From Chloroflexota bacterium (GTDB taxonomy: Bacteria > Chloroflexota > Anaerolineae > Promineifilales > Promineifilaceae): DNA of 39,987 nucleotides. The position numbers and the translations under genes were made by a program. Of the stretch, positions 15,439-39,298 are shown piece after piece. The stretch is from NCBI GenBank assembly GCA_022616275.1, contig JAKEFB010000208.1:1-39987 (forward strand), given 5' to 3'. The first letter of the stretch is position 1. Each line of letters opens with the position of its first letter. The notes below the pieces were generated by a model. That model saw nothing but the letters and a program-made list of their open reading frames with translations, was not told where the DNA came from and did not search any database.

Positions 15439-16383
15439 ATGATGTGGAAGGTTCCTGGTTTTCAGATAGGGCACGCGACGAATGAGGCGGGGCATACGGG
15501 CTGCACGGTCTTTCTGTGCCCGCCGGGGACAGTGGGCGGGGTGGACGTGCGCGGGCCGGCGCCGGGGAGCCGGGAGACGGTGCTGCTGGCCCCGGACAAG
15601 GCGGTGACGACGATTAACGCGGTCTTGTTGACCGGGGGCAGCGCCTTTGGCCTGGCGGCGGCCGACGGGGTGATGAACTTCCTGGCCGAGCGGGGGATTG
15701 GCCACCCGACGCCGGTCCGGCCGATTCCAATTGTGACGGCGGCAGTGGTCTATGACCTGTTTATGAATGGCGGTCGGGTGTTGCCGGACGCGGCGATGGG
15801 CTACGCCGCCTGCCGGGCGGCCAGCGACGAGCCCACAGTGCAAGGCAACGTCGGCGCCGGGGCGGGGGTGACCGTCGGCAAGTGGGGTGGCTTCGCGGGC
15901 ATTATGAAGGGCGGCTTTGGCCTGGCGTCAGTAGAGCTAGGCGAGCTGGCCGTGGGCGCAGCGGCGGTGGTCAACAGCGTGGGCGACGTGGTGTCGGCCG
16001 ACGGGACGGTGCTGGCCGGGGCGCGAGCGCCGGACGGCGGCTGGCTGGTGGAGGGCGACCCGTTTCGTCGCTTCCCCGAGCGGCCGCCGGCTAACCTGGG
16101 GACGAATACGACGCTGGTGGTGGTGCTGACGAACGCCCGGCTGGATAAGGTAGCCGCGAACCGGCTGGCGCAGCGGGCGCACGACGGGATGGCGATGGCT
16201 ATCCGGCCGGCGCACACCACGCACGACGGAGACACCGCTTTTGCCCTGGCGGCCGGCCCAGTGATGGCGCCGTTTGATTTGGTGGCGAACGCGGCCGTGG
16301 AGATGGTGGCAGAGGCAATTCGGAATGGGGTGCGGTATGCGGCGACGGTGGGGGAGGTAGTAGGACTGAGGGATGAGGACTGA
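15439..16383 (+). CDS. P1 family (DmpA/BapA-type) peptidase
   Basis: 314 residues, typical of family S58/P1 N-terminal-nucleophile aminopeptidases. Visible marks are the start VPGFQIGHATNEAGHTGCTV, the DVRGPAPGSRETVLL stretch, LLTGGSAFGLAAADGVM, and the autoprocessing region GTNTTLVVVLTNARL (about residues 221-235), where the T-T becomes the new N-terminal nucleophile. It should cleave itself into two subunits and release N-terminal residues or beta-amino acids. The last codons (ending GLRDED) and the stop lie inside a heptamer repeat array. Start ATG 15439 or 15442; the ribosome site is weak. Confidence 0.88.
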   Translation: MMWKVPGFQIGHATNEAGHTGCTVFLCPPGTVGGVDVRGPAPGSRETVLLAPDKAVTTINAVLLTGGSAFGLAAADGVMNFLAERGIGHPTPVRPIPIVTAAVVYDLFMNGGRVLPDAAMGYAACRAASDEPTVQGNVGAGAGVTVGKWGGFAGIMKGGFGLASVELGELAVGAAAVVNSVGDVVSADGTVLAGARAPDGGWLVEGDPFRRFPERPPANLGTNTTLVVVLTNARLDKVAANRLAQRAHDGMAMAIRPAHTTHDGDTAFALAAGPVMAPFDLVANAAVEMVAEAIRNGVRYAATVGEVVGLRDED

Positions 16384-16437
16384 GGACTGAGTAGGGAGTG
16401 ATGAGTGATGAGCAATGAGCAATGAGCAATGAGTGGT
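16354..16437. repeat. Twelve in-phase GAGnnnT heptamers across a gene junction
   Basis: Read in steps of 7 from 16354: GAGGTAG, TAGGACT, GAGGGAT, GAGGACT twice, GAGTAGG, GAGTGAT twice, GAGCAAT three times, GAGTGGT. The phase never slips. The array contains the peptidase stop codon (16381-16383) and the apparent hydrolase start (16429-16431). Confidence 0.9.
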
Positions 16438-17262
16438 AATGGAATTTATCCGGCGTTGCCGCGCGAGCGGCTACACGCCTTAGATGTGGAGACGAGTTAT
16501 TTGACGGCCGGGGCAGCGGGGGGGCGGCCGGTGGTGTTGTTGCATGGGATGTCGGCTTCGGCCGATAGTTTTCGAGAGCTGATGCATGACCTGGCCGGCG
16601 ATTTCTGGCTGCTGGCCCCGGACCTGCCCGGGTTTGGCCATAGCGCCGATACGGCGCCGTACACGATGCCGCACCTGGTGGAATGGCTGGCGGCGTTCCA
16701 GGAGCGGCTGGGCTTGCCGCCGGTCCACCTGGTAGGCCATTCGTTCGGCGGGGTGCTGGCTTCGGCTTATGCCCTGGCTTACCCGGAGGACGTGAGCAGC
16801 CTGACGCTGCTGGCCCCGGCCTTGCTGGTTCCCGGCAGTTACCCGGAGTGGCTGCGCCGGGTCGGTAAGAAGTTGGGGCTGATGGAAGCCGGGATTGCCG
16901 TGTCGCGGGTCTGGCTGGAGCGGCAGATCCGGGTGCCGTTTTACGATCCCTCGCTCATGGACGAGTCGCTGTGGGAGCGGCGGCGGGCCGATTACGGGCT
17001 GGCGCGGGCCTCGGCCGCGGCGATGCACGCGGTGGCGGGGTATGACCTGCGGCCGCGGCTGGCCACGCTGCGCCAGGCGACGAGCGTGATTTGGGGCTGC
17101 AACGACCCGGTGGTGCCGGCGTCGGACGCCGATAAGTTGCAAAAGATGATACCCCAGGTAGAAGTACACAAGCTGGCGGCCTGCGGCCACGCGCCGATGT
17201 TGGAGCGGCCGGGGGAGGTGGGGGAAATTGTGCGGCAGTTTTTGGGGCAGGTTCGATTTTAG
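16429..17262 (+). CDS. Alpha/beta-fold hydrolase
   Basis: 277 residues with the full alpha/beta-hydrolase triad: nucleophile Ser about 105 in GHSFGG, the acidic residue in SVIWGCNDPVVPA (about 221-233), and His in ACGHAPMLERPGEV (about 250). The oxyanion region VVLLHGMSAS is at about 35-44. It is likely an esterase, lipase-like enzyme or C-C hydrolase; the substrate cannot be told. The apparent ATG is made by the heptamer repeat and has no Shine-Dalgarno, so the true start is not certain. A conserved fold does not begin until about residue 17. No signal peptide. Confidence 0.85.
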   Translation: MSGNGIYPALPRERLHALDVETSYLTAGAAGGRPVVLLHGMSASADSFRELMHDLAGDFWLLAPDLPGFGHSADTAPYTMPHLVEWLAAFQERLGLPPVHLVGHSFGGVLASAYALAYPEDVSSLTLLAPALLVPGSYPEWLRRVGKKLGLMEAGIAVSRVWLERQIRVPFYDPSLMDESLWERRRADYGLARASAAAMHAVAGYDLRPRLATLRQATSVIWGCNDPVVPASDADKLQKMIPQVEVHKLAACGHAPMLERPGEVGEIVRQFLGQVRF

Positions 17263-17313: not shown

Positions 17314-17904
17314 ATGAATAATCTGTTTGCCGGCCGCCTGGTGCGGCTTCGTGCCCTTGAACCGGACGATGCAGAGACGCTGTTCCAGCATCTTCAGGAT
17401 ACGGAAATCTCCCGCCTGGACTCTTCTATTGAATATCCTCGCTCCCTGGCCGACATCCGGCGCTTGCTGGAAAATCCCCGTGAGGCAAGGAATCCAGACA
17501 ATAGGGAACTGGCGATTGAAACCCTGGACGGCCAGATGGTGGGTGGGATCAACGTGCAAGGTGCGGACTCTCGTAATGGAACGTTTTCTATTGGAATCGG
17601 CCTGCCGGAGCGAACCGCCTGGGGCAAAGGGTATGCCAAAGAGGCGATGCTCCTGGCCTTGCGCTACATGTTCCACGAACGGCGCTATCAGAAATGCAAC
17701 ATTGGCGTCTTTGCTTTCAACGAGCGGGCTATTGGACTGTATCGCCATCTGGGGTTTGTGGACGAGGGGCGCGTTCGGCGCGCTGTTTTTACCAATAGCG
17801 CCTACCACGACGAAATCTTGCTGGGGATGACTTTTGAGGAATTTGATAACCGTTACCCGGAGTGGCGGGTTTCTCTAGATGAAAATAGCCCGGTAATTGG
17901 GTAA
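17314..17904 (+). CDS. GNAT-family N-acetyltransferase (RimJ/RimL type)
   Basis: 196 residues from ATG 17314, which has AGAGG 6 nt upstream. The start LFAGRLVRLRALEPDDAETL is the usual first strand of RimJ/RimL-type acetyltransferases. The acetyl-CoA loop is WGKGYAKEAMLLAL (about 109-122), followed by NERAIGLYRHLGFVDEG (about 146-162). It transfers acetyl from acetyl-CoA to an amine on a small molecule or protein N-terminus; the acceptor is unknown. The last residues (VIG, stop) are encoded by a GGTAATTG repeat. Confidence 0.9.
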   Translation: MNNLFAGRLVRLRALEPDDAETLFQHLQDTEISRLDSSIEYPRSLADIRRLLENPREARNPDNRELAIETLDGQMVGGINVQGADSRNGTFSIGIGLPERTAWGKGYAKEAMLLALRYMFHERRYQKCNIGVFAFNERAIGLYRHLGFVDEGRVRRAVFTNSAYHDEILLGMTFEEFDNRYPEWRVSLDENSPVIG

Positions 17905-17915
17905 TTTGGTAATTG
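17892..17915. repeat. Three GGTAATTK octamers at a gene junction
   Basis: GGTAATTG, GGTAATTT, GGTAATTG in tandem. They contain the stop codon of the acetyltransferase gene and end 8 nt before the next start codon. The unit is related to the GTAATTG units at 31888-31910. Confidence 0.85.
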
Positions 17916-17923
17916 GAGAGTAT

Positions 17924-19750: not shown

Positions 19751-21073
19751 GTGTTAGGATTGAGCGTGGGGCGACAGGCCCGGCCGGTGCCGGCCGAGCT
19801 ACGCTCGTCTTTTATTCACCTGTACCTGGATATTGCCTGGTTTGGGGTGCTGAGTGGCAGTTCCACTGCCTTCGCGGCTATTTTTGCCACCCGGCTGGGA
19901 GCCGACGCGCTGCAGATTGGTCTGCTCAACGCGGGCCCGGCGGCTATGGGATTGCTTTTTACCCTGCCGGCCGGGCGCTGGCTGGAAAGCCGGCCGATTG
20001 GCAAGGCCGTGTTCTGGACGTCCGTGTTCCACCGGCTGGGCTTTTTCTTCTGGATTCTCCTGCCCTGGTTGTTAAGGCCGCAGGGGCAAATCTGGGCCTT
20101 GGTGAGCCTGACCTTGCTGGCCGGCATTCCCGGCACGGTGCTGGCGGTGGCCTTTAACGCCATGTTTGCCACAGCCGTGCCGCCGCAGTGGCGCGGCCAC
20201 GTGGTCGGCACTCGCAACGCTCTGCTGGCCGTGACCTACCTGATTGTTACCCTGCTGTGTGGCATTATCCTGGAGAACGCGCCGTTTCCGCTGGGTTACC
20301 AGGTCGTTTTTGCCATCGGCTTCGTGGGCGCCGCCATGAGCAGCGTCCACTTGTGGTACGTTCGCTCGCGGATGGAGACCGGCCGGCTAGTGAATTTCGG
20401 CCTGACCGGCCGCGGCCTGGGGGAACTGGGCCGGCCGGGGCATTCCCGCACCTGGGGTGACGGCCTGCGCTGGGCGGTGGGATTGCGTTTCCTGACCCGC
20501 AGCCAGGGTAAACCGCTGCTGCGAACGGAGATCTTGCGGACGAGTTACGGTCGCATGGTGGGGGTGCTGCTGGCCTTTCACCTGGCCCAATTTATGGCCA
20601 TCCCGCTCTTTCCGCTGTATTGGGTGAGAGAACTGAACCTGACCGACCAGGAGATTAGCCTGGGGACGGCGCTGTTTCAAGTGGTGGTTTTCCTGGGATC
20701 GACGCAGTTGGCCAGGGTGTCGGAGCGCCTGGGATACCACCGGGTGACAGTGGTGGGAGCGGTCTTGATGAGCCTGTACCCATTCCTGACGGCGGCCAGC
20801 CACGATCTGACGTTGTTCCTGGTAACAGCGGCCGTAGGCGGTGTGGCCTGGTCATTGGCTGGCGGCGGCTTGAGTAATTATATCCTGGAGCGGGTGCCGG
20901 AGAACGACCGGCCGGCCCACCTGGCCTGGTATAACCTGGCGCTGAACGGCGCTGTTCTGTTGGGCGTGCTGTGCGGGTCGTTTGTGGCCGAACAGATCGG
21001 ATTGGCCCTGGCGCTGGGGCTGGCGGCCGGTCTGCGGTTGCTGGCGGCGCTGGCGATATGGAGGTGGGGGTAA
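19751..21073 (+). CDS. MFS transporter
   Basis: 440 residues with about 12 hydrophobic segments split by a central cytoplasmic loop (about residues 215-260, rich in Arg/Gly). The sequence starts LRSSFIHLYLDIAWFGVLSGSST and has an MFS-like loop between helices 2 and 3 (PAGRWLESRPIGKAVFW, about 75-91). The repeat motif in the second half is RVSERLGYHR (about 319-328). Substrate unknown; single-gene MFS carriers of this type are often exporters. GTG start with AGGA 7 nt upstream. It converges with the DUF512 gene across a heptamer array. Confidence 0.88.
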   Translation: MLGLSVGRQARPVPAELRSSFIHLYLDIAWFGVLSGSSTAFAAIFATRLGADALQIGLLNAGPAAMGLLFTLPAGRWLESRPIGKAVFWTSVFHRLGFFFWILLPWLLRPQGQIWALVSLTLLAGIPGTVLAVAFNAMFATAVPPQWRGHVVGTRNALLAVTYLIVTLLCGIILENAPFPLGYQVVFAIGFVGAAMSSVHLWYVRSRMETGRLVNFGLTGRGLGELGRPGHSRTWGDGLRWAVGLRFLTRSQGKPLLRTEILRTSYGRMVGVLLAFHLAQFMAIPLFPLYWVRELNLTDQEISLGTALFQVVVFLGSTQLARVSERLGYHRVTVVGAVLMSLYPFLTAASHDLTLFLVTAAVGGVAWSLAGGGLSNYILERVPENDRPAHLAWYNLALNGAVLLGVLCGSFVAEQIGLALALGLAAGLRLLAALAIWRWG

Positions 21074-21161
21074 GCAATGAGCAATGAGCGATGAGCAATG
21101 AGTGAGGAGTGAGGAGGACTGAGGACTGAGGATTGGGGTGAATCCAAAATCCAAAATCGGT
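21074..21161. repeat. Three heptamer families in one convergent spacer
   Basis: From left to right: four RATGAGY units (21076-21103), then GAGGAGT/GAGGACT/GAGGATT units (21104-21134), then two AATCCAA units (21141-21154). It separates the MFS stop from the DUF512 stop. Confidence 0.85.
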
Positions 21162-22541: not shown

Positions 22542-23282
22542 TTACGGCCGGGCCTGGGCCGGTTGGAAAGCAGGCAGGGCCAGAATTTCGCGGAGAACGG
22601 CTTCCGGAGAGCGGCCAGTGGTGTCAATGATGAGGGCATCGGCCGCCGGCCGCATGGGCGAATGTTCGCGGCTGCTGTCAATCCGGTCCCGGCGAATAAT
22701 GTCGGCCAGGATCTGGTCGTGATCGACGTCCAGGCCTCGCTGGCGGCGTTCTAACATGCGCCGCCGGGCCCGTTCTTCGGCGGAAGCAACAATGTACAGT
22801 TTAACGGGCGCGTCAGGTAAAACGACGGTACCGATGTCCCGGCCAACCATCACGACCCGGCCGCGCTGGGCCATCGAGCGCTGGCGCTGGACCAGGTTCT
22901 GGCGTACCCCTTTGTAAGCGGAGACCTGGGAGACATGGCGGTCCACAGCCGGGGCGCGCAGTTCCCAGGTCACGTCCCGGCCGTTCAGCCAGACGGTGTA
23001 CAGGCGGCCATCATTTTCGTTCTGGACAGGAATAATGTCCATGTCCAGTTGCTCGGTCAGGGTGGTGACGGCCGGTTCGTCGTCAATGGGTACACTGTTT
23101 TGCAGGGCGGCCAGGGTAGTGGCCCGGTACATGGAACCGGTGTCCAGGAAGAGGCAGTTGAGATAATCGGCCAACATCCGGCCGATGGTGGTTTTGCCGG
23201 AAGCGGCCGGGCCGTCAATGGCGATGGCGTTAGGGATTTTAGATTTTAGATTTTGGATTTTGGATTTAAACTCATCGCTCAT
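22542..23282 (-). CDS. cmk: Cytidylate kinase
   Basis: 246 residues from ATG 23282. P-loop AIDGPAASGKTTIGRMLA (about 21-38), CMP-binding FLDTGSMYRATTLAAL (about 44-59), and VMVGRDIGTVVLPDAPVKLYIVAS (about 148-171) are all standard for (d)CMP kinases. It makes CDP from CMP and ATP. The first 18 residues (MSDEFKSKIQNLKSKIPN) are mostly encoded by a heptamer array and look unlike the family, which normally starts two or three residues before the P-loop strand. No conventional start exists between the array and the P-loop, so either the array is translated or a rare start codon is used. The gene overlaps nothing and lies 67 nt after rluB. Confidence 0.93.
   Translation of the reverse strand: MSDEFKSKIQNLKSKIPNAIAIDGPAASGKTTIGRMLADYLNCLFLDTGSMYRATTLAALQNSVPIDDEPAVTTLTEQLDMDIIPVQNENDGRLYTVWLNGRDVTWELRAPAVDRHVSQVSAYKGVRQNLVQRQRSMAQRGRVVMVGRDIGTVVLPDAPVKLYIVASAEERARRRMLERRQRGLDVDHDQILADIIRRDRIDSSREHSPMRPAADALIIDTTGRSPEAVLREILALPAFQPAQARP
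23234..23268. repeat. Five RGATTTW heptamers inside the cmk 5' end
   Basis: On the plus strand: GGATTTT, AGATTTT, AGATTTT, GGATTTT, GGATTTA, exactly 35 nt in phase. On the coding strand they give the peptide pair KSKIQNL / KSKIPN, a 7-residue period as expected when a 7-nt repeat is read in triplets. Confidence 0.9.
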
Positions 23283-23349
23283 TGCGCATCGCTCATTGCT
23301 CGGAGTTGGCGGAGTTGGGCCGCCCAACTCCGCCAACGGCACTCATTGC
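23271..23349. repeat. Composite element: ATGAGCR heptamers plus GTTGGC hairpin
   Basis: Minus-strand GAGCGATGAG units flank a long perfect inverted repeat, GTTGGCGGAGTTGGGC (23305-23320) and its complement (23322-23337) around one C. More ATGAGCA/ATGAGT units (23341-23355) reach into the rluB 3' end. The same heptamer-plus-AGTTGG hairpin combination recurs at 26364-26436 and 39189-39298. Confidence 0.8.
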
Positions 23350-24105: not shown

Positions 24106-24777
24106 TCAACTTTCCGGCTGTGCCGCTACCGTCTGGCCGGCCGCGCCGTCTTTGGCCGGACCACTATCCAGCGAGGGCAGCTCGTCAAGGGAACGCAGCT
24201 CCTCAAGGGAGCGCAGTTCGTCGAGCGAGTGCAGTTCGGCAAGCGAACGCAATTCGGCAAGCGAACGCAGTTCGGCAAGCGAACTGAGGCCAAAGTGCTG
24301 GAGAAATTCCGGGGTGGTACTGTACAGGATGGGCCGGCCGGGAGTTTCCTGCCGGCCGACTTCTTCGATGAGGCCCTGGCCAAGTAGCGTCCGCAGGGCG
24401 CTGTCGGAATTGACGCCGCGAATCTGATCAATGTGCGGCCGGGTGGCGGGCTGCATGAAGGCGATAATAGCCAGCACTTCAAGGGAGGCCTGGCTGAGAC
24501 GGGTCGTGAGTTCCAGACCCAGAAAACGCTCGACGACGGCGCTGCTTTGTGGGGCAGTGGTCAACTGGACGGCGTTACCGCTCCATTGCAAGCGCAGGCC
24601 GCGGTGGCGATATTCCCCTTCCAGGGAGCGCAAAAGGCTTTCCACGGCCGCCGGCGTTGTTTCTAGCGCCCGGGCCAGACGGGCAGGAGAAACCGGCCCG
24701 CTGGCGACAAATAAGAGGCTTTCAAGGAGAGCGGCCGGGCTTAATTCTTCACCGGCCGGTTGCCCGGTTATCATCAT
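24106..24777 (-). CDS. scpB: Segregation and condensation protein B
   Basis: 223 residues. Two winged-helix modules, with marks ALLESLLFVASGPVSPARLARAL (about 16-38) and ASLEVLAIIAFMQPATRPHIDQIRGVNSDSALRTLL (about 97-132), identify ScpB, a partner of SMC-ScpA in chromosome condensation. The tail is unusual: six hexapeptides of form SLxELR (about 166-201) followed by a Gly/Ala-rich end. ATG 24777 has GAGG 7 nt upstream. scpA, normally just upstream, is not in the window; the preceding gene is divergent. Operon order is scpB-rluB-cmk-DUF512. Confidence 0.92.
   Translation of the reverse strand: MMITGQPAGEELSPAALLESLLFVASGPVSPARLARALETTPAAVESLLRSLEGEYRHRGLRLQWSGNAVQLTTAPQSSAVVERFLGLELTTRLSQASLEVLAIIAFMQPATRPHIDQIRGVNSDSALRTLLGQGLIEEVGRQETPGRPILYSTTPEFLQHFGLSSLAELRSLAELRSLAELHSLDELRSLEELRSLDELPSLDSGPAKDGAAGQTVAAQPES
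24175..24282. repeat. Six 18-bp tandem repeats in the scpB 3' end
   Basis: Units of the form CGCAGTTCGGCAAGCGAA on the plus strand encode SLAELR, SLAELR, SLAELH, SLDELR, SLEELR, SLDELP. The three units nearest the folded domain are almost identical in DNA; the distal three have drifted. Confidence 0.9.
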
Positions 24778-26384: not shown

Positions 26385-26436
26385 GTTGGGCTGCCCAACT
26401 CAACCAACTATAAGCAATGAGTAATGAGTGATGAGT
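26364..26436. repeat. Composite element: heptamers plus 17-bp AGTTGG hairpin
   Basis: GAGCGATGAGCGC precedes AGTTGGTTGAGTTGGGC (26375-26391), one T, and its exact complement (26393-26409), followed by RATGAGT heptamers (26413-26436). The TGA stop of the M20 gene (26382-26384) is inside the left arm. Confidence 0.85.
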
Positions 26437-26453
26437 CAGGAGGAATTGGTCAG

Positions 26454-29098: not shown

Positions 29099-29128
29099 GC
29101 GGTGGGTTGGTGAAACCCACCGCTTTTT
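29099..29128 (+). terminator. Rho-independent terminator of tRNA-Asn
   Basis: GCGGTGGGTT (29099-29108) pairs with AACCCACCGC (29114-29123) over a 5-nt loop, followed by five T residues. It starts 8 nt after the tRNA. Confidence 0.88.
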
Positions 29129-29171
29129 GTTTGACGCAAAGGCGCAAATTTGTTTGACGCAAAGGCGCAAA
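29126..29171. repeat. Perfect 23-bp tandem duplication
   Basis: The 23-nt unit beginning TTTGTTTGACGCAAAGG and ending CGCAAA occurs at 29126-29148 and directly again at 29149-29171 without a mismatch. The first copy starts in the terminator T-run. Downstream, 29174-29218 has further inverted repeats of the type GGTTATTG/CAATAAC. Confidence 0.9.
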
Positions 29172-29280: not shown

Positions 29281-30822
29281 ATGACGACATATCCGTTGGT
29301 GGCGCTGATTATTCTGGATGGGTGGGGATTGCGGGAGATGGAGCATGGCAACGCTGTGGTCCAGGCCAGGACGCCTAATTATGACCGCTGGACACGGGAA
29401 TTGGAGCGGACGATTGTGGATGCTTCGGGCGAGGCGGTGGGCCTACCGGAGGGACAAATGGGCAACTCGGAGGTCGGGCACCTGAACCTGGGTTCCGGCC
29501 GGATCGTCTACCAGGACATGACCCGCATTGACAAGGCGATTAAGGAGAGGACCTTCTTTAAGGACCCGACACTGGCCGGCTGTATGGAGGGGGTGAAGGC
29601 CCAGGGAGGCAAGCTGCACCTGATCGGCCTGCTGGGACCAGGCGGGGTCCATAGCCACGTGCGCCACTTGAAAGCGCTGGTGGAGCTGGCCAAACAGCAG
29701 GGCGTAGACCCGATCATTCACGTGATTACCGACGGCCGGGATACGCCGCCCCAGAGCGGCATCGAATTTGTGGCCGACCTGGAGGAATTTCTAAAGCAAG
29801 AGGGGCTGGGGACAATTGCTACAGTGGGCGGCCGCTACTATGCGATGGACCGGGACAAGCGCTGGCCACGCACAGAGCAGGCTTACCGGGCCATTGCCCT
29901 GGGCCAGGGCCGGACGGCGACATCGGCCCGAGAAGCGGTGACGCGGTCGTACGCCGAGGGCGTGACCGACGAGTTTATTGTGCCGGTGGTTATTGATTCG
30001 AGCAGCGACCGAAGCACAAAGGTGGAGCCGGGCGATGGCCTGATGTTCTACAATTTTCGGGCTGACCGGATGCGGCAGATCGTGGAAAGCTTTGCCCTGC
30101 CGGATTTTGCCGGCTTTGAACGCGAGGGCGGCTTTCTCAAGGAGCTGGACGTGGTGACTTTTACGGAGTACCACAAGGATTACCCCGTCCGGGTGGTCTT
30201 TCCAGAGAAGATAATTATCAACCCACTGGCCGAGGTGTTGAGCCTGCAAGGGTTGGACCAGTTCCACGCGGCCGAGACGGAAAAGTACGCCCACGTGACT
30301 TACTTTTTTAACGGCGGCCGGGAGGTAGCTTTTGAAGGGGAGGACCGGTCGCTCATTCCGTCGCCGAAGGTAGCGACGTATGATTTGAAGCCGGAAATGA
30401 GCGCCTATGAACTGACCGAAGCCGTGGTCCAGCGGGTGCAGAGCCACGACGACGCCTTTATCCTGGTTAACTATGCCAACCCAGACATGGTTGGGCACAC
30501 CGGCGTGCTGGCCGCGGCCGTGAAGGCGGTCGAGGCGGTGGACGAATGCGCCGGCCGGTTGGTGAGCGCCATTGTGGCTAAAGGGGGCGTGGCGCTGGTG
30601 ACGGCCGACCACGGCAACGCGGAGCGGATGATTGACGAGGTGACGGGCACGCCACACACCTATCACACGACCAGCCCGGTGGCTTTCTTTATCATTGGCG
30701 ACCGCTACTTCTTTCCCCGGCCGCGCGGCATCCTGGCCGACGTAGCGCCGACGGTGCTGGAGCTGTTGGGGATTGAGCTGCCAGAGGAGATGACGGGTAA
30801 GAGTCTGTTGCAGCATATGTAG
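29281..30822 (+). CDS. gpmI: 2,3-bisphosphoglycerate-independent phosphoglycerate mutase
   Basis: 513 residues, standard for iPGM. Marks: LVALIILDGWGLRE at the N-terminus, the phosphoserine site EGQMGNSEVGHLNLGSGR (Ser 63), HVITDGRDTPPQSG (about 147-160), YYAMDRDKRWPRTEQAY (about 183-199), YANPDMVGHTG (about 399-409) and TADHGNAERM (about 441-450), which supply the two manganese ions. It interconverts 3- and 2-phosphoglycerate in glycolysis. ATG 29281 has AGGAG 7 nt upstream; an upstream in-frame extension lacks such a site and runs through repeats. Confidence 0.96.
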   Translation: MTTYPLVALIILDGWGLREMEHGNAVVQARTPNYDRWTRELERTIVDASGEAVGLPEGQMGNSEVGHLNLGSGRIVYQDMTRIDKAIKERTFFKDPTLAGCMEGVKAQGGKLHLIGLLGPGGVHSHVRHLKALVELAKQQGVDPIIHVITDGRDTPPQSGIEFVADLEEFLKQEGLGTIATVGGRYYAMDRDKRWPRTEQAYRAIALGQGRTATSAREAVTRSYAEGVTDEFIVPVVIDSSSDRSTKVEPGDGLMFYNFRADRMRQIVESFALPDFAGFEREGGFLKELDVVTFTEYHKDYPVRVVFPEKIIINPLAEVLSLQGLDQFHAAETEKYAHVTYFFNGGREVAFEGEDRSLIPSPKVATYDLKPEMSAYELTEAVVQRVQSHDDAFILVNYANPDMVGHTGVLAAAVKAVEAVDECAGRLVSAIVAKGGVALVTADHGNAERMIDEVTGTPHTYHTTSPVAFFIIGDRYFFPRPRGILADVAPTVLELLGIELPEEMTGKSLLQHM

Positions 30823-30838
30823 TAGCCATCTGGACATT

Positions 30839-30873
30839 GGATTTGAGATTAGGGATTGGAGATTAGAGATTAA
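30839..30873. repeat. Five RGATTNN heptamers before the ABC ATPase
   Basis: GGATTTG, AGATTAG, GGATTGG, AGATTAG, AGATTAA, exactly in phase over 35 nt. Same family as the array inside cmk (23234-23268). The reading frame of the following ATPase is open through it. Confidence 0.88.
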
Positions 30874-31852
30874 CGTCATTGAGGTTGAGGGGTTAAGGAA
30901 AACGTTTGAGCTGAAGCAGAAGGCGCCGGGGTTGCGGGGTAGCTTGCGGGCGGTGTGGCGGCCGGTGACGAAGCTGGTGGACGCGGTGCGCGGCGTCAGC
31001 TTTAGCCTGGAAGAGGGGGAATTACTGGCTTTTATCGGCCCGAATGGGGCGGGCAAGTCTACGACGATTAAGATGTTGACCGGCATTCTTTACCCGAGCG
31101 GCGGCCGGGCCTCGGTCCTGGGGTACGTGCCCTGGAAGGAGCGGCGCAAGCTGTCTTACCACATTGGCTCGGTTTTTGGCCAGAAGCCGCAGTTGTGGTA
31201 CCACCTGCCGCCGGAGGATACGTTTCGACTTTTTGCCCGCATTTACGAGCTGGATATGGACGCTTACCGGGAGCGGCGGGCTTTTCTGGTGGAGGCGTTT
31301 CAACTGGGTGAGCTGCTGCAAACGCCGGTGCGCAAGCTGAGCCTGGGCCAGCGGATGAAGTGCGAGATTGCCGCCTCGCTGCTGCACCGGCCGCGACTGA
31401 TTTTCCTGGACGAGCCGACGATTGGGCTGGACGTGGTCGCCAAGCAGCAAATCCGGGAAGCTATCCGCACACTGAACGAGACGGAGAATACGACCATCTT
31501 TTTAACCAGCCACGACGCGGGCGACGTTGAGAATTTGTGCAAGCGGGTGATTGTGGTCAATCACGGCCGGATTATCTTCGACGACCGCACTTCGGTGCTC
31601 AAGCGGCAGTACCTGACGCGAAAAATCGTGGACGTGCGCTTTAGCGAGCCGCTCAACGAGCCGTTTCACCTGCCGGGGGTGACGACGTTGAAGCAGGGGA
31701 CGTACGGAGTGAAGCTGGAATTTGACGGCCGGGAAGTGCCGGTGGAGCGAGTGGTCCAGCAAATCATTGCTACGCGGTCGACAACGGACATTAATATTTC
31801 TGATCCGCCGATGGAAGAGATTATTCGGGAGATTTATACGCAGCAGGAGTAG
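30869..31852 (+). CDS. ABC-2 type exporter ATP-binding protein
   Basis: About 327 residues. Walker A GPNGAGKSTT, signature KLSLGQRMKCEIA, Walker B LIFLDEPTIGLD and the H-loop LTSHDAGD are intact; the C-terminus has the usual DrrA/NatA-like beta-rich tail. The first conventional start, TTG 30932, would delete the conserved first strand and A-loop, which are visible upstream in frame as VIEVEGLRKTFELKQKAPG. No ATG, GTG or TTG precedes that strand. I therefore place the start at the ATT codon 30869, which has GGAG 7 nt upstream, but it is not certain. It energises the two permeases that follow. Confidence 0.85.
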   Translation: MNVIEVEGLRKTFELKQKAPGLRGSLRAVWRPVTKLVDAVRGVSFSLEEGELLAFIGPNGAGKSTTIKMLTGILYPSGGRASVLGYVPWKERRKLSYHIGSVFGQKPQLWYHLPPEDTFRLFARIYELDMDAYRERRAFLVEAFQLGELLQTPVRKLSLGQRMKCEIAASLLHRPRLIFLDEPTIGLDVVAKQQIREAIRTLNETENTTIFLTSHDAGDVENLCKRVIVVNHGRIIFDDRTSVLKRQYLTRKIVDVRFSEPLNEPFHLPGVTTLKQGTYGVKLEFDGREVPVERVVQQIIATRSTTDINISDPPMEEIIREIYTQQE

Positions 31853-31910
31853 GGGGCAGGTGGCAGGTGGCGGGTGGCAAGTGGCAGGTAATTGAGTAAT
31901 TAGGTAATTG
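31853..31910. repeat. GTGGCAG and GTAATTG heptamer arrays
   Basis: GGGGCAG, GTGGCAG, GTGGCGG, GTGGCAA, GTGGCAG (31853-31887) in phase, then GTAATTG, AGTAATT and AGGTAATTG. They fill the whole gap between the ATPase stop and the next start codon, leaving no room for a ribosome site of normal form. Confidence 0.9.
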
Positions 31911-31912
31911 GT

Positions 31913-32713
31913 GTGGTTAAGAGTGTTCAGAAGTACGGGGCGATTACGCTGACCAACTTGCAGAACCAGTTGGCCTATATTTGGGATGCCTTAAACCGGG
32001 CGTTTTTTATTGTCATTATCTTGCTAGTCTTTGTCCAGTTGTGGACGGCCGCATATGGGGCGCGGGGGGAGACGGAAATTGGCGGGCTGACGCTGGCCGA
32101 CACGATCTGGTATTTCCTGGTGGCGGAGATGGTGGAGTTGGGCAAGTTCCGCCACGACCAGAAGATTTCGGAGGAGGTCAAGGACGGCTCGATTGCCTAT
32201 ACGCTGGGCCGGCCGTACAACTACCTGGCTTACCACTTTTTTAACGGCCTGGGGGATACGGTGGTGAAAATGGGGCTGATTTTCCTGCTGGGCGCGCCGA
32301 TTGCCCTCTATTACGCCGGCCGGCCATCGGTCCAATGGCAACACCTGCCGGCCGTGCTGCTGGTGGCGTTCCTGGCCCTGTTATTGGACTTTTTCTTTCT
32401 GAGCATGATTGGCCTGCTGGCCTTTGTCGTCGAGGATACCTTTTCCTTTCGCCTCATTTACCAGAAGCTGGTCTTTATCCTGGGCGGGCTGCTGATCCCG
32501 GTGGACTTCTTGCCGGGCTGGCTGCAAAACGTGGCCCGGTTGCTGCCTTTTAGCCTGACGGTTTACGCCCCGGCCAGGCTATTTGCCTCTTTTTCCTGGA
32601 GCCAGTTTAGCCAGGTGGTCGCGCTGCAAGGGTTCTGGCTGGCGGTGATCGGCGTGGCGCTGTATGGGCAGTATCGCTGGGCGACGCGGCGGTTGGTGGT
32701 GAACGGGGGGTGA
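31913..32713 (+). CDS. ABC-2 type permease (DUF990-like), first
   Basis: 266 residues with six membrane segments, e.g. FFIVIILLVFVQLWTAAYG at about 31-49. The loop EISEEVKDGSIAYTLGRPYNYLAYHF (EISEEVKD near 84) resembles the coupling region of the ABC-2_4/DUF990 group. Start GTG 31913 lies right after a heptamer repeat and lacks a clear Shine-Dalgarno. With the next gene it forms a hetero-dimeric channel for an unknown substrate. The group is found in many Gram-positive and Chloroflexota exporters. Confidence 0.85.
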   Translation: MVKSVQKYGAITLTNLQNQLAYIWDALNRAFFIVIILLVFVQLWTAAYGARGETEIGGLTLADTIWYFLVAEMVELGKFRHDQKISEEVKDGSIAYTLGRPYNYLAYHFFNGLGDTVVKMGLIFLLGAPIALYYAGRPSVQWQHLPAVLLVAFLALLLDFFFLSMIGLLAFVVEDTFSFRLIYQKLVFILGGLLIPVDFLPGWLQNVARLLPFSLTVYAPARLFASFSWSQFSQVVALQGFWLAVIGVALYGQYRWATRRLVVNGG

Positions 32714-32752
32714 AGTGTGGTCATGTGGTTGTGTGGTTATGTGGCTGTGTAG
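32714..32752. repeat. RTGTGGYY octamer array
   Basis: GTGTGGTC, ATGTGGTT, GTGTGGTT, ATGTGGCT, GTGTAGGA in tandem directly after the first permease stop. Another array at a gene junction, with 8-nt units. Confidence 0.85.
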
Positions 32753-39188: not shown

Positions 39189-39298
39189 AAAATAGCAATG
39201 AGCAATGAGCGCAGTTGGCAAGGCCAACTACGAGCGATGAGTAATGGAGTGCGCCTGCTTTTATACTCATTGCTCATTGCTTTGCACTCATTGCTTTC
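39189..39298. repeat. Composite element: RATGAGC heptamers, AGTTGGC hairpin and inverted heptamers
   Basis: AGCAATGAGCAATGAGC is followed by the hairpin AGTTGGC-AAG-GCCAACT (39213-39229) and more GAGCGATGAG units. About 30 nt later come inverted units (ACTCATTGCTCATTGC and ACTCATTGC). It fills the gap between ogt and the epimerase-like gene. Confidence 0.85.

Follow-up and report, generated by a model that had tools for sequence, protein, structure and literature searches.

A heptamer array across a peptidase-hydrolase junction and the period-7 and period-8 repeats dispersed through its Chloroflexota genome

An excess of heptamers in bacterial intergenic DNA has already been published, as has the proposal that polymerase slippage favors a 7-nt unit (PMC4692102), and its cause is not agreed upon. 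The closest known system is the cyanobacterial STRR family (short tandemly repeated repetitive sequences, unit of 7 bp), and its closest functional precedent is the STRR hairpin between hupS and hupL in four filamentous cyanobacteria, for which a role in transcript stability or translation coupling was suggested (PMC2670836). The hyp operon of Nostoc PCC 7120 is reported to contain conserved short intergenic sequences, some of them able to form hairpins (PMC2408588). The heptamers GGGAATC of Xanthomonas and GGGGAYT of Nostoc are mostly intergenic and lie on average 28 nt from the 5' ORF versus 160 nt from the downstream ORF, with 70 and 75 inverted pairs in two Xanthomonas genomes and few inverted pairs reported in Nostoc (PMC4692102). 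In a broader survey, repeats with units of 4 to 11 bp were normally or weakly overrepresented in prokaryotic genomes (PMC4060949). The TAACTGA repeats of Beggiatoaceae are heptamer direct repeats that carry stops in one orientation and lie in the reverse orientation when within ORFs, and indels between two Cyanothece strains came mostly in 7-nt steps (PMC4679880). REP elements tagged with GTAG/CGTC are palindromes, often species specific and mostly located in co-directional and convergent gaps (PMC3733652).

The DNA analyzed here, referred to below as the window, is a stretch of 39,987 nucleotides from a Chloroflexota bacterium. Two genes on its plus strand are joined by a heptamer array, and the features of this junction, with gene calls from our own simple caller, are as follows.

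15439 to 16383, plus strand: upstream gene, peptidase of family S58 (PF03576; Pfam match)
16354 to 16367, plus strand: the words GAGGTAG and TAGGACT, probably for the most part conserved C-terminal codons of the peptidase (GEVVGL)
16368 to 16437, plus strand: heptamer array proper, 10 in-phase units of which 9 are exactly GAGnnnT
16381 to 16383, plus strand: TGA stop codon of the peptidase, supplied by the array
16389 to 16398, plus strand: the single nonfitting unit GAGTAGG (16389 to 16395) and the next bases, inside the array
16401 to 16418, plus strand: five-codon mini-ORF ATG AGT GAT GAG CAA TGA, ending in a stop that overlaps the following ATG (ATGA)
16415 to 16432, plus strand: second mini-ORF ATG AGC AAT GAG CAA TGA, whose stop overlaps the hydrolase ATG at 16429
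16429 to 17262, plus strand: downstream gene, alpha/beta hydrolase (PF00561), whose ATG (16429) lies within the array

The sequence-only reading that preceded this work had cut the 84 bp from 16354 to 16437 into twelve GAGnnnT words without loss of phase. The phase is indeed kept throughout, with a lag-7 identity of 57/77 and an identity of at most 0.41 at every lag from 1 to 29 that is not a multiple of 7. The pattern itself is exact in only 9 of the 12 words and fails in GAGGTAG, TAGGACT, and GAGTAGG, and the extent of twelve units was a slight overcount that arose from the first two words. We read GAGGTAG and most of TAGGACT as conserved C-terminal peptidase codons; the peptidase ends in ...VGEVVGLRDED here versus ...VAGVPGLASLEVRE in one relative, G019 (GEVVGL versus GVPGLA), and the Pfam match to S58 extends to residue 305 of the 314. 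Since these words would thus be mostly peptidase sequence, the array proper has ten units (GAGGGAT, GAGGACT, GAGGACT, GAGTAGG, GAGTGAT, GAGTGAT, GAGCAAT, GAGCAAT, GAGCAAT, and GAGTGGT), and the AGGACT just before 16368 may be a partial first unit. As to the impression that few neighbors are identical, 4 of the 11 adjacent pairs are the same (two GAGGACT, two GAGTGAT, and three GAGCAAT units). The array is real and far above chance expectation: the longest perfect GAGnnnT run in the window has 6 units, whereas its 200 dinucleotide shuffles gave no run above 2, and three-unit matches number 7 (five of them within 16354 to 16437) compared to none in 100 shuffles.

As had been noted, the array contains both the stop of the peptidase and the start of the hydrolase, and the peptidase residues RDED just before the stop are array encoded. 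Stops occur in all three plus-strand frames of the array (4, 7, and 3 by frame), and there are none on the minus strand. AGGGAG at 16393 to 16398, from the nonfitting unit and the bases that follow it, could be a Shine-Dalgarno-like stretch. A nearby gene at 17314 to 17904 gave no match in Escherichia coli genomes by megablast. As RNA, the array folds no better than its shuffles (z of +0.70, and likewise +0.44 for 16340 to 16480), and it has no inverted partner. No terminator-like site was found on either strand of 16250 to 16550, nor any promoter-like site there, and an intrinsic terminator, with a GC-containing hairpin and a T tract, was rejected. A G-quadruplex was rejected as well: unlike the quadruplex-capable G-runs of GGGAATC and GGGGAYT, 16368 to 16437 has two GGG runs where a minimum of four such G-runs (three G or longer) would be required. 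Finally, the site is not a REP or GTAG-tagged palindrome, as the array is not palindromic (z of +0.70) and no GTTGGCnnnGCCAAC is found there.

Period 7 is not confined to this junction. A lag-7 excess in intergenic DNA relative to neighboring lags had been proposed as a check, and in 1.26 Mb of the window genome (77 sources, picked by contig number and size and not for arrays) there were 98 intergenic arrays at lag 7 versus 0, 4, and 5 at lags 5, 6, and 9. A second excess that had not been foreseen was found at lag 8 (45 arrays). Lags 4, 10, 11, and 13 gave 0, 1, 2, and 1 arrays, lags 12 and 15 gave 7 and 4, and lags 14 and 16, which are multiples of 7 and 8, gave 26 and 20. In coding sequence there were 14 arrays at lag 7 and 12 at lag 8. 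These counts exclude the window and L096, a region picked because of its GAG array; with both included (1.32 Mb, made up of a maximum of 20 kb from every one of contigs C1 to C60, additional sequence from six long contigs, the window, and L096, after removal of two contigs that read all N), there were 107 lag-7 and 46 lag-8 intergenic arrays compared to 0 or 1 per lag after block shuffling. In 150 kb of E. coli K-12 we found no array at lag 7 and one at lag 8. Over the whole assembly (8.53 Mb, 309 contigs), a BLAST-type search gave at least 41 matches to the array, a lower bound because 40 of 218 first-look candidates were scored, and four consecutive GAGnnnT units matched 63 times on one strand and 92 times on the other, overlapping matches included.

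The words repeated with this period are many, GGAGATT, ATTGGTT, GGATTTT, GAGnnnT, and others, so that GAGnnnT is one of several families; the period is constant and the word is variable. The same holds between genomes, where the words listed are GAGCAAT, GAGTGAT, and GAGGACT for the window genome, GAGCAGT, GAGCGGT, and GAGTGAT for the relative G022, and GAGGAAT, GAGGGAT, and GAGGACT for G010. Within units the variation is uneven: mismatches fall at position 7 in 26/40 cases for GAGATTR and 19/24 for GATTTTR, and at positions 4 to 6 in 65/98 cases for GAGnnnT, a spread that is not predicted by slippage plus random mutation. Recognition of GAGnnnT by a repeat protein, or by a protein with a 7-nt footprint, would be favored by the much lower variation of GAG and T than of nnn and by the presence of 77 GAG arrays of three or more fitting units in 1.98 Mb (a sample chosen in part for such arrays). 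Such a binding array is nevertheless very improbable in our view, since the families GAGATTR, GATTTTR, TTATTGG, and GTGTCAR have other cores at the same period, octamers are also common, and the words change between genera.

The likeness to STRR repeats that had been suggested is apt. Like the arrays here, STRRs are tandem in-phase heptamers with dispersed intergenic copies, and in 56 cyanobacterial loci we found 180 arrays at lag 7 versus 16 at lag 8 and none at lags 5 and 6; these loci were fetched for a GAGYRAT array and picked by record title from the matches listed, and 121 of the 180 lag-7 arrays are free of the search words. Records of Symploca, Calothrix, Nostoc, and Mastigocoleus are among the matches listed for GAGYRAT words, and those listed for four GAGYRAT units in named genomes include many cyanobacteria, Bacteroidota, a few Chloroflexi, and others. 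The cyanobacterial loci differ in that 7 of the 121 arrays have inverted partners (a count without a computed null) versus 43 of 107 in the window genome, and units of 7 nt would carry too little signal to argue for descent from the cyanobacterial repeats. In comparison to GGGAATC and GGGGAYT, the window genome has several different words with a common period. The doubt over whether a Chloroflexota equivalent had been described is answered by the 22 (GATAGRA)n satellites reported for Chloroflexus aurantiacus (PMC6749651). They too form a dispersed heptamer family in a Chloroflexi species but consist of a single word, and the part of that report drawn upon here describes no hairpin or gap architecture. 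Heptamer hairpins running from stop to start in Chloroflexota were not found described in those parts of the open-license literature that were covered.

Absence from every related genome, named beforehand as a refuting result, is likewise contradicted: arrays recur among relatives, and the locus itself is only partly matched. Of 40 related genomes, 10 hold four consecutive GAGnnnT units, and in a wider phylum-level sample 40 of 300 further genomes do so; a reversed-pattern control also matches in several relatives, sometimes more often than the pattern, but it matches GAGTnnn arrays and therefore is not a neutral control. In 57 loci of relatives that were fetched for their proteins (five overlapping loci left out), there were 18 arrays at lag 7, 8 at lag 8, and 0 to 2 at each of lags 4 to 6 and 9 to 13. 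The peptidase-hydrolase neighborhood is conserved in nine relatives. Seven of the junctions have no comparable array by eye, among them that of G051, which is GAG rich but irregular, and the remaining two, in G010 and G047, show short heptamer tracts built from different words. Because most syntenic junctions lack the array, that of the window appears to be a lineage-specific gain. In G019, the peptidase and hydrolase genes overlap by ATGA and ATGAGTGG matches the final unit of the window array, and therefore growth of the array probably took place within a compact, coupled junction of two genes that probably once overlapped. Of the family's 52 other genomes, none carries the genus label of the window genome, and this set therefore gives no view of unit-number change at 16368 to 16437. 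One further relative, G013, has a GAGCAAT tract just past the 3' end of the hydrolase gene (L098:1453-1494) and not at the peptidase-hydrolase junction.

Replication slippage, one of the purposes proposed for the array, is supported by our data both within the genome and between species. In the 77 GAG arrays, adjacent units were identical in 97 of 307 cases, compared to a mean of 65.5 (standard deviation of 5.3, maximum of 84 in 2,000) when units were shuffled within arrays, and such an excess is what slippage predicts. In a sister genus, g23, five of six species carry a hairpin built of GCAGTRA-type heptamers in the gap after the pyruvate:ferredoxin oxidoreductase (PFOR) gene (in the sixth, G041, this gap was not found), and by eye the 5' arms have 5, 6, 3, 4, and 4 units and the 3' arms 5, 5, 5, 4, and 5. 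These whole-unit differences at an orthologous gap point to slippage. Related hairpins with similar words and different loops are present at other loci in the g23 genomes. Copy-paste of array segments was examined as a source of new arrays and rejected: four-unit strings common to several arrays numbered 16, compared to 24.8 under a first-order Markov null and 8.8 under the within-array shuffle, and longer strings of up to six units were not in excess of the Markov null either. Recent copying is therefore not claimed.

GAG arrays are placed with a clear polarity relative to stop codons. In co-directional gaps, arrays with GAG on the coding strand (n = 32) start at a median of -2 nt from the stop and 26 of them lie within 12 nt of it, while antisense arrays (n = 17) start at a median of 76 nt and none lies within 12 nt (Mann-Whitney U test, p of 4.7e-7). 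The stop is inside the array in 20/32 coding-strand cases versus 0/17 antisense cases, and when every type of gap is taken together, 50 of 67 sites have the GAG strand closer to its gene with its 5' end than with its 3' end. The window array is of the coding-strand kind. TAACTGA repeats differ in this respect, as those of a Beggiatoaceae genome are mostly upstream of start codons and coding-strand GAG arrays are on stop codons. When all lag-7 arrays were pooled by purine strand, with 25 purine-ambiguous arrays and 22 in divergent, convergent, or edge positions set aside from the 107, the contrast in distance to the stop was not significant (p of 0.40 for paired and 0.14 for lone arrays), and the polarity is therefore demonstrated for the GAG family only; for lag-8 arrays, p was 0.025 for lone arrays and 0.67 for the three paired ones. 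The four GAG arrays inside called genes always have the gene on the strand without stops, although an open strand also favors gene calling and the PFOR case is the only one of them compared with orthologues. The regions L137 to L175 were chosen for GAG arrays and were used for the orientation, word, and palindrome statistics only.

From these observations, we favor, with some reserve, the explanation that the window array belongs with many other heptamer and octamer tracts, dispersed and specific to the lineage, in the intergenic DNA of this bacterium and its relatives, tracts that change by slippage and disperse through the genome. Some form of copying, for which shared words are the evidence, would carry the tracts from locus to locus, and they would persist where they are least harmful, just past a C terminus with the GAG strand providing TGA or TAG in all frames. 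At the window locus, a compact junction like the ATGA overlap of G019 would have expanded to ten units, so that the stop of the peptidase now lies close to the array's 5' end and the start of the hydrolase in its last unit, and the likely effect would be that peptidase translation is ended in every frame and its coupling to the hydrolase loosened. Counting against this explanation, the tight placement at stops could mean selection instead of tolerance.

Selection is also brought to mind by the hairpins. More than one in three lag-7 arrays has an inverted partner, and the co-directional hairpins mostly reach from the stop to a short distance before the next start, a feature newly described here. 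Inverted 10-mer partners, lying inside the array itself or no farther than 90 nt from it, were found for 43 of 107 intergenic lag-7 arrays compared to a mean of 3.9 (maximum of 9 in 200) under a swapped-flank null, and for 37 of 98 without the window and L096; direct partners numbered only 3 of 107. For lag-8 arrays the inverted count was 9/46 (null of 1.0), and in relatives it was 10/18 at lag 7 (null of 0.85, maximum of 4) and 1/8 at lag 8 (null of 0.11), where direct partners numbered 3. Because arms were counted singly, the 43 paired arrays correspond to 35 hairpin loci. Lags 7 and 8 together give 44 loci, of which 33 are co-directional, 5 convergent, 4 divergent, and 2 at source edges, set against 691, 122, and 124 co-directional, convergent, and divergent gaps called in the 1.32-Mb sample. 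Of the 33 co-directional loci, 28 start at positions from -23 to +6 nt relative to the stop and the other five start 113 to 871 nt past it; at the median, the loci end 14 nt short of the following start codon. Over the 9 nt that follow paired heptamer hairpins, T makes up a fraction of 0.25, and the purine-rich arm comes first in 27/35 hairpins, which is suggestive only.

The tracts could thus be selected as RNA punctuation, forming the arms of intercistronic hairpins that separate genes in a polycistronic mRNA through stability, processing, or attenuation, with the window array as a half element whose 3' arm was lost or is yet to be gained. Pairing far above the swapped-flank null and the stop-to-start placement argue for such a role, and so does the PFOR locus. 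Among the 22 parsed gaps 3' of the PFOR gene (L178 to L201) that measure 20 nt or more (of 25, those of the window genome and G012 were not parsed and one is 11 nt), 17 fold with z below -3. Their sequences resemble each other hardly more than shuffled sequences do: across 210 pairs, local similarity exceeds that of shuffles by a median of 0.2, two strongly similar pairs are within a genus, and the next best exceeds its shuffles by 5.5 score units. The window genome has a 12-bp hairpin in its own PFOR gap. Several of the 22 gaps come from the same genus and are therefore not fully independent. Folding with so little common sequence suggests repeated gain of a hairpin at the PFOR gap, by selection or by repeated invasion.

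Other results speak against such a role, and we regard selected punctuation as a possible but rather unlikely explanation of the window array. The window array does not fold (z of +0.70) and has no partner, and a hairpin role is therefore not claimed for it; among GAG sites, only 7/75 have an inverted array within 70 nt and 13/75 a GTTGGC-like palindrome within 45 nt. Pairing in the best register exceeds that one unit off in 31/35 hairpins, a comparison that by construction cannot come out lower. Five of the 22 PFOR gaps (G019, G004, G018, G049, and G007) have z above -3, and genus-specific repeats that repeatedly invaded a tolerant gap would leave the same pattern. Intercistronic hairpins are also not exceptional here, an idea that we considered and dropped, as E. 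coli co-directional gaps fold too: z is below -3 in 83/294 co-directional gaps of the window genome, 34/65 of relatives, and 8/26 of E. coli. Below -5, the class is larger here, although on small numbers, with fractions of 44/294, 20/65, and 2/26 compared to 0/365, 1/72, and 0/37 for the respective coding controls.

A bolder version is that heptamer arrays are lineage-wide mRNA punctuation, with hairpins conserved in structure, free in sequence, and running from the stop to the Shine-Dalgarno site, and with unpaired GAGnnAT arrays acting as an ATGA relay; we hold this to be doubtful. The 7-nt unit would be favored since 7 is not a multiple of 3, and one arm therefore has stops in every frame, and the ATGA stop-starts at 16401, 16415, and 16429 would pass ribosomes to the next gene by termination-reinitiation. 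Beyond the window locus the case for an ATGA ladder is weak, with 7 of the 77 GAG arrays holding a same-strand gene start and 4 of these beginning with ATGA. What the group of genomes offers is a period of 7 or 8 that is kept while words change, with many inverted partners between stop and start and with whole-unit changes between species at an orthologous gap. Slippage, spread, and selection should thereby be separable by comparing genera; for RNA data, the prediction is that the hairpin is kept and the word replaced.

The window holds further arrays, some of them associated with palindromes.

21066 to 21139, plus strand: second GAGnnnT array, in a convergent gap, beginning at the stop of the gene at 19751 to 21073
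23225 to 23338, unstranded: GATTTTR heptamers followed by a CTC-strand GAGnnnT array, between two minus-strand genes
26406 to 26446, plus strand: short GAGnnnT array between co-directional genes
30837 to 30875, plus strand: GAGATTR-type heptamers, starting 15 nt past the end of a gene that stops at 30822
31843 to 31913, plus strand: AGGTGGC heptamers and then GTAATTGA octamers, filling the gap between one gene's stop and the start of the gene that follows
39190 to 39290, unstranded: composite of GAG heptamers, an AGTTGGC-AAG-GCCAACT palindrome (39213 to 39229), and CTC heptamers, in the gap between two minus-strand genes

The array at 23225 to 23338 bears a longer GTTGGC...GCCAAC variant of the palindrome (about 23300 to 23338). 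A related case is the PFOR gene of the window genome (PF01855 and others), which has an in-frame GAGGACT array and a GGTTGGC...GCCAACC palindrome (L014:4963-5030), a tract that makes it 14 residues longer than 21 of 24 orthologues and 16 to 20 longer than the other three (the second copy in the window genome, on contig C288, was left out of the alignment), a further sign of gain in this lineage. Such palindromes raise the alternative that the arrays are the arms of a REP-like mobile element remnant moved by a Y1 transposase. The AGTTGGC-nnn-GCCAACT palindrome (AGTTGGCnnnGCCAACT) has 49 exact sites in the window genome and one in the 52 other family genomes, 14 of the 19 sampled GTTGGCnnnGCCAAC sites are accompanied by paired GAG/CTC heptamers no more than 25 nt away, and the genome has six matches to Y1_Tnp (PF01797). 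We nevertheless find this origin improbable, as there is no such palindrome at the window array, 62/75 GAG sites have none nearby, and the palindromes at the examined Y1 loci have GCCGGC-type arms and not GTTGGC. Compared to REP elements, the arms here are tandem heptamers and the window array is not a palindrome. A link to a Y1 transposase is itself unlikely, with no GTTGGC palindrome seen at the four of six Y1 loci examined; a loose palindrome pattern matched twice in these loci, and one locus has a two-unit CTC match. Palindromes of the GAGACG...CGTCTC type number 5 in 1.32 Mb.

Repeats of other kinds also occur in the window. Octamer arrays (GGTAATTG and others) are located at 17892 to 17916, 31888 to 31910, and 32716 to 32750. 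An 18/54-nt tandem repeat at 24170 to 24284 overlaps a called gene (24106 to 24777), and a perfect 23-nt tandem duplication, TTTGTTTGACGCAAAGGCGCAAA, lies at 29126 to 29171.
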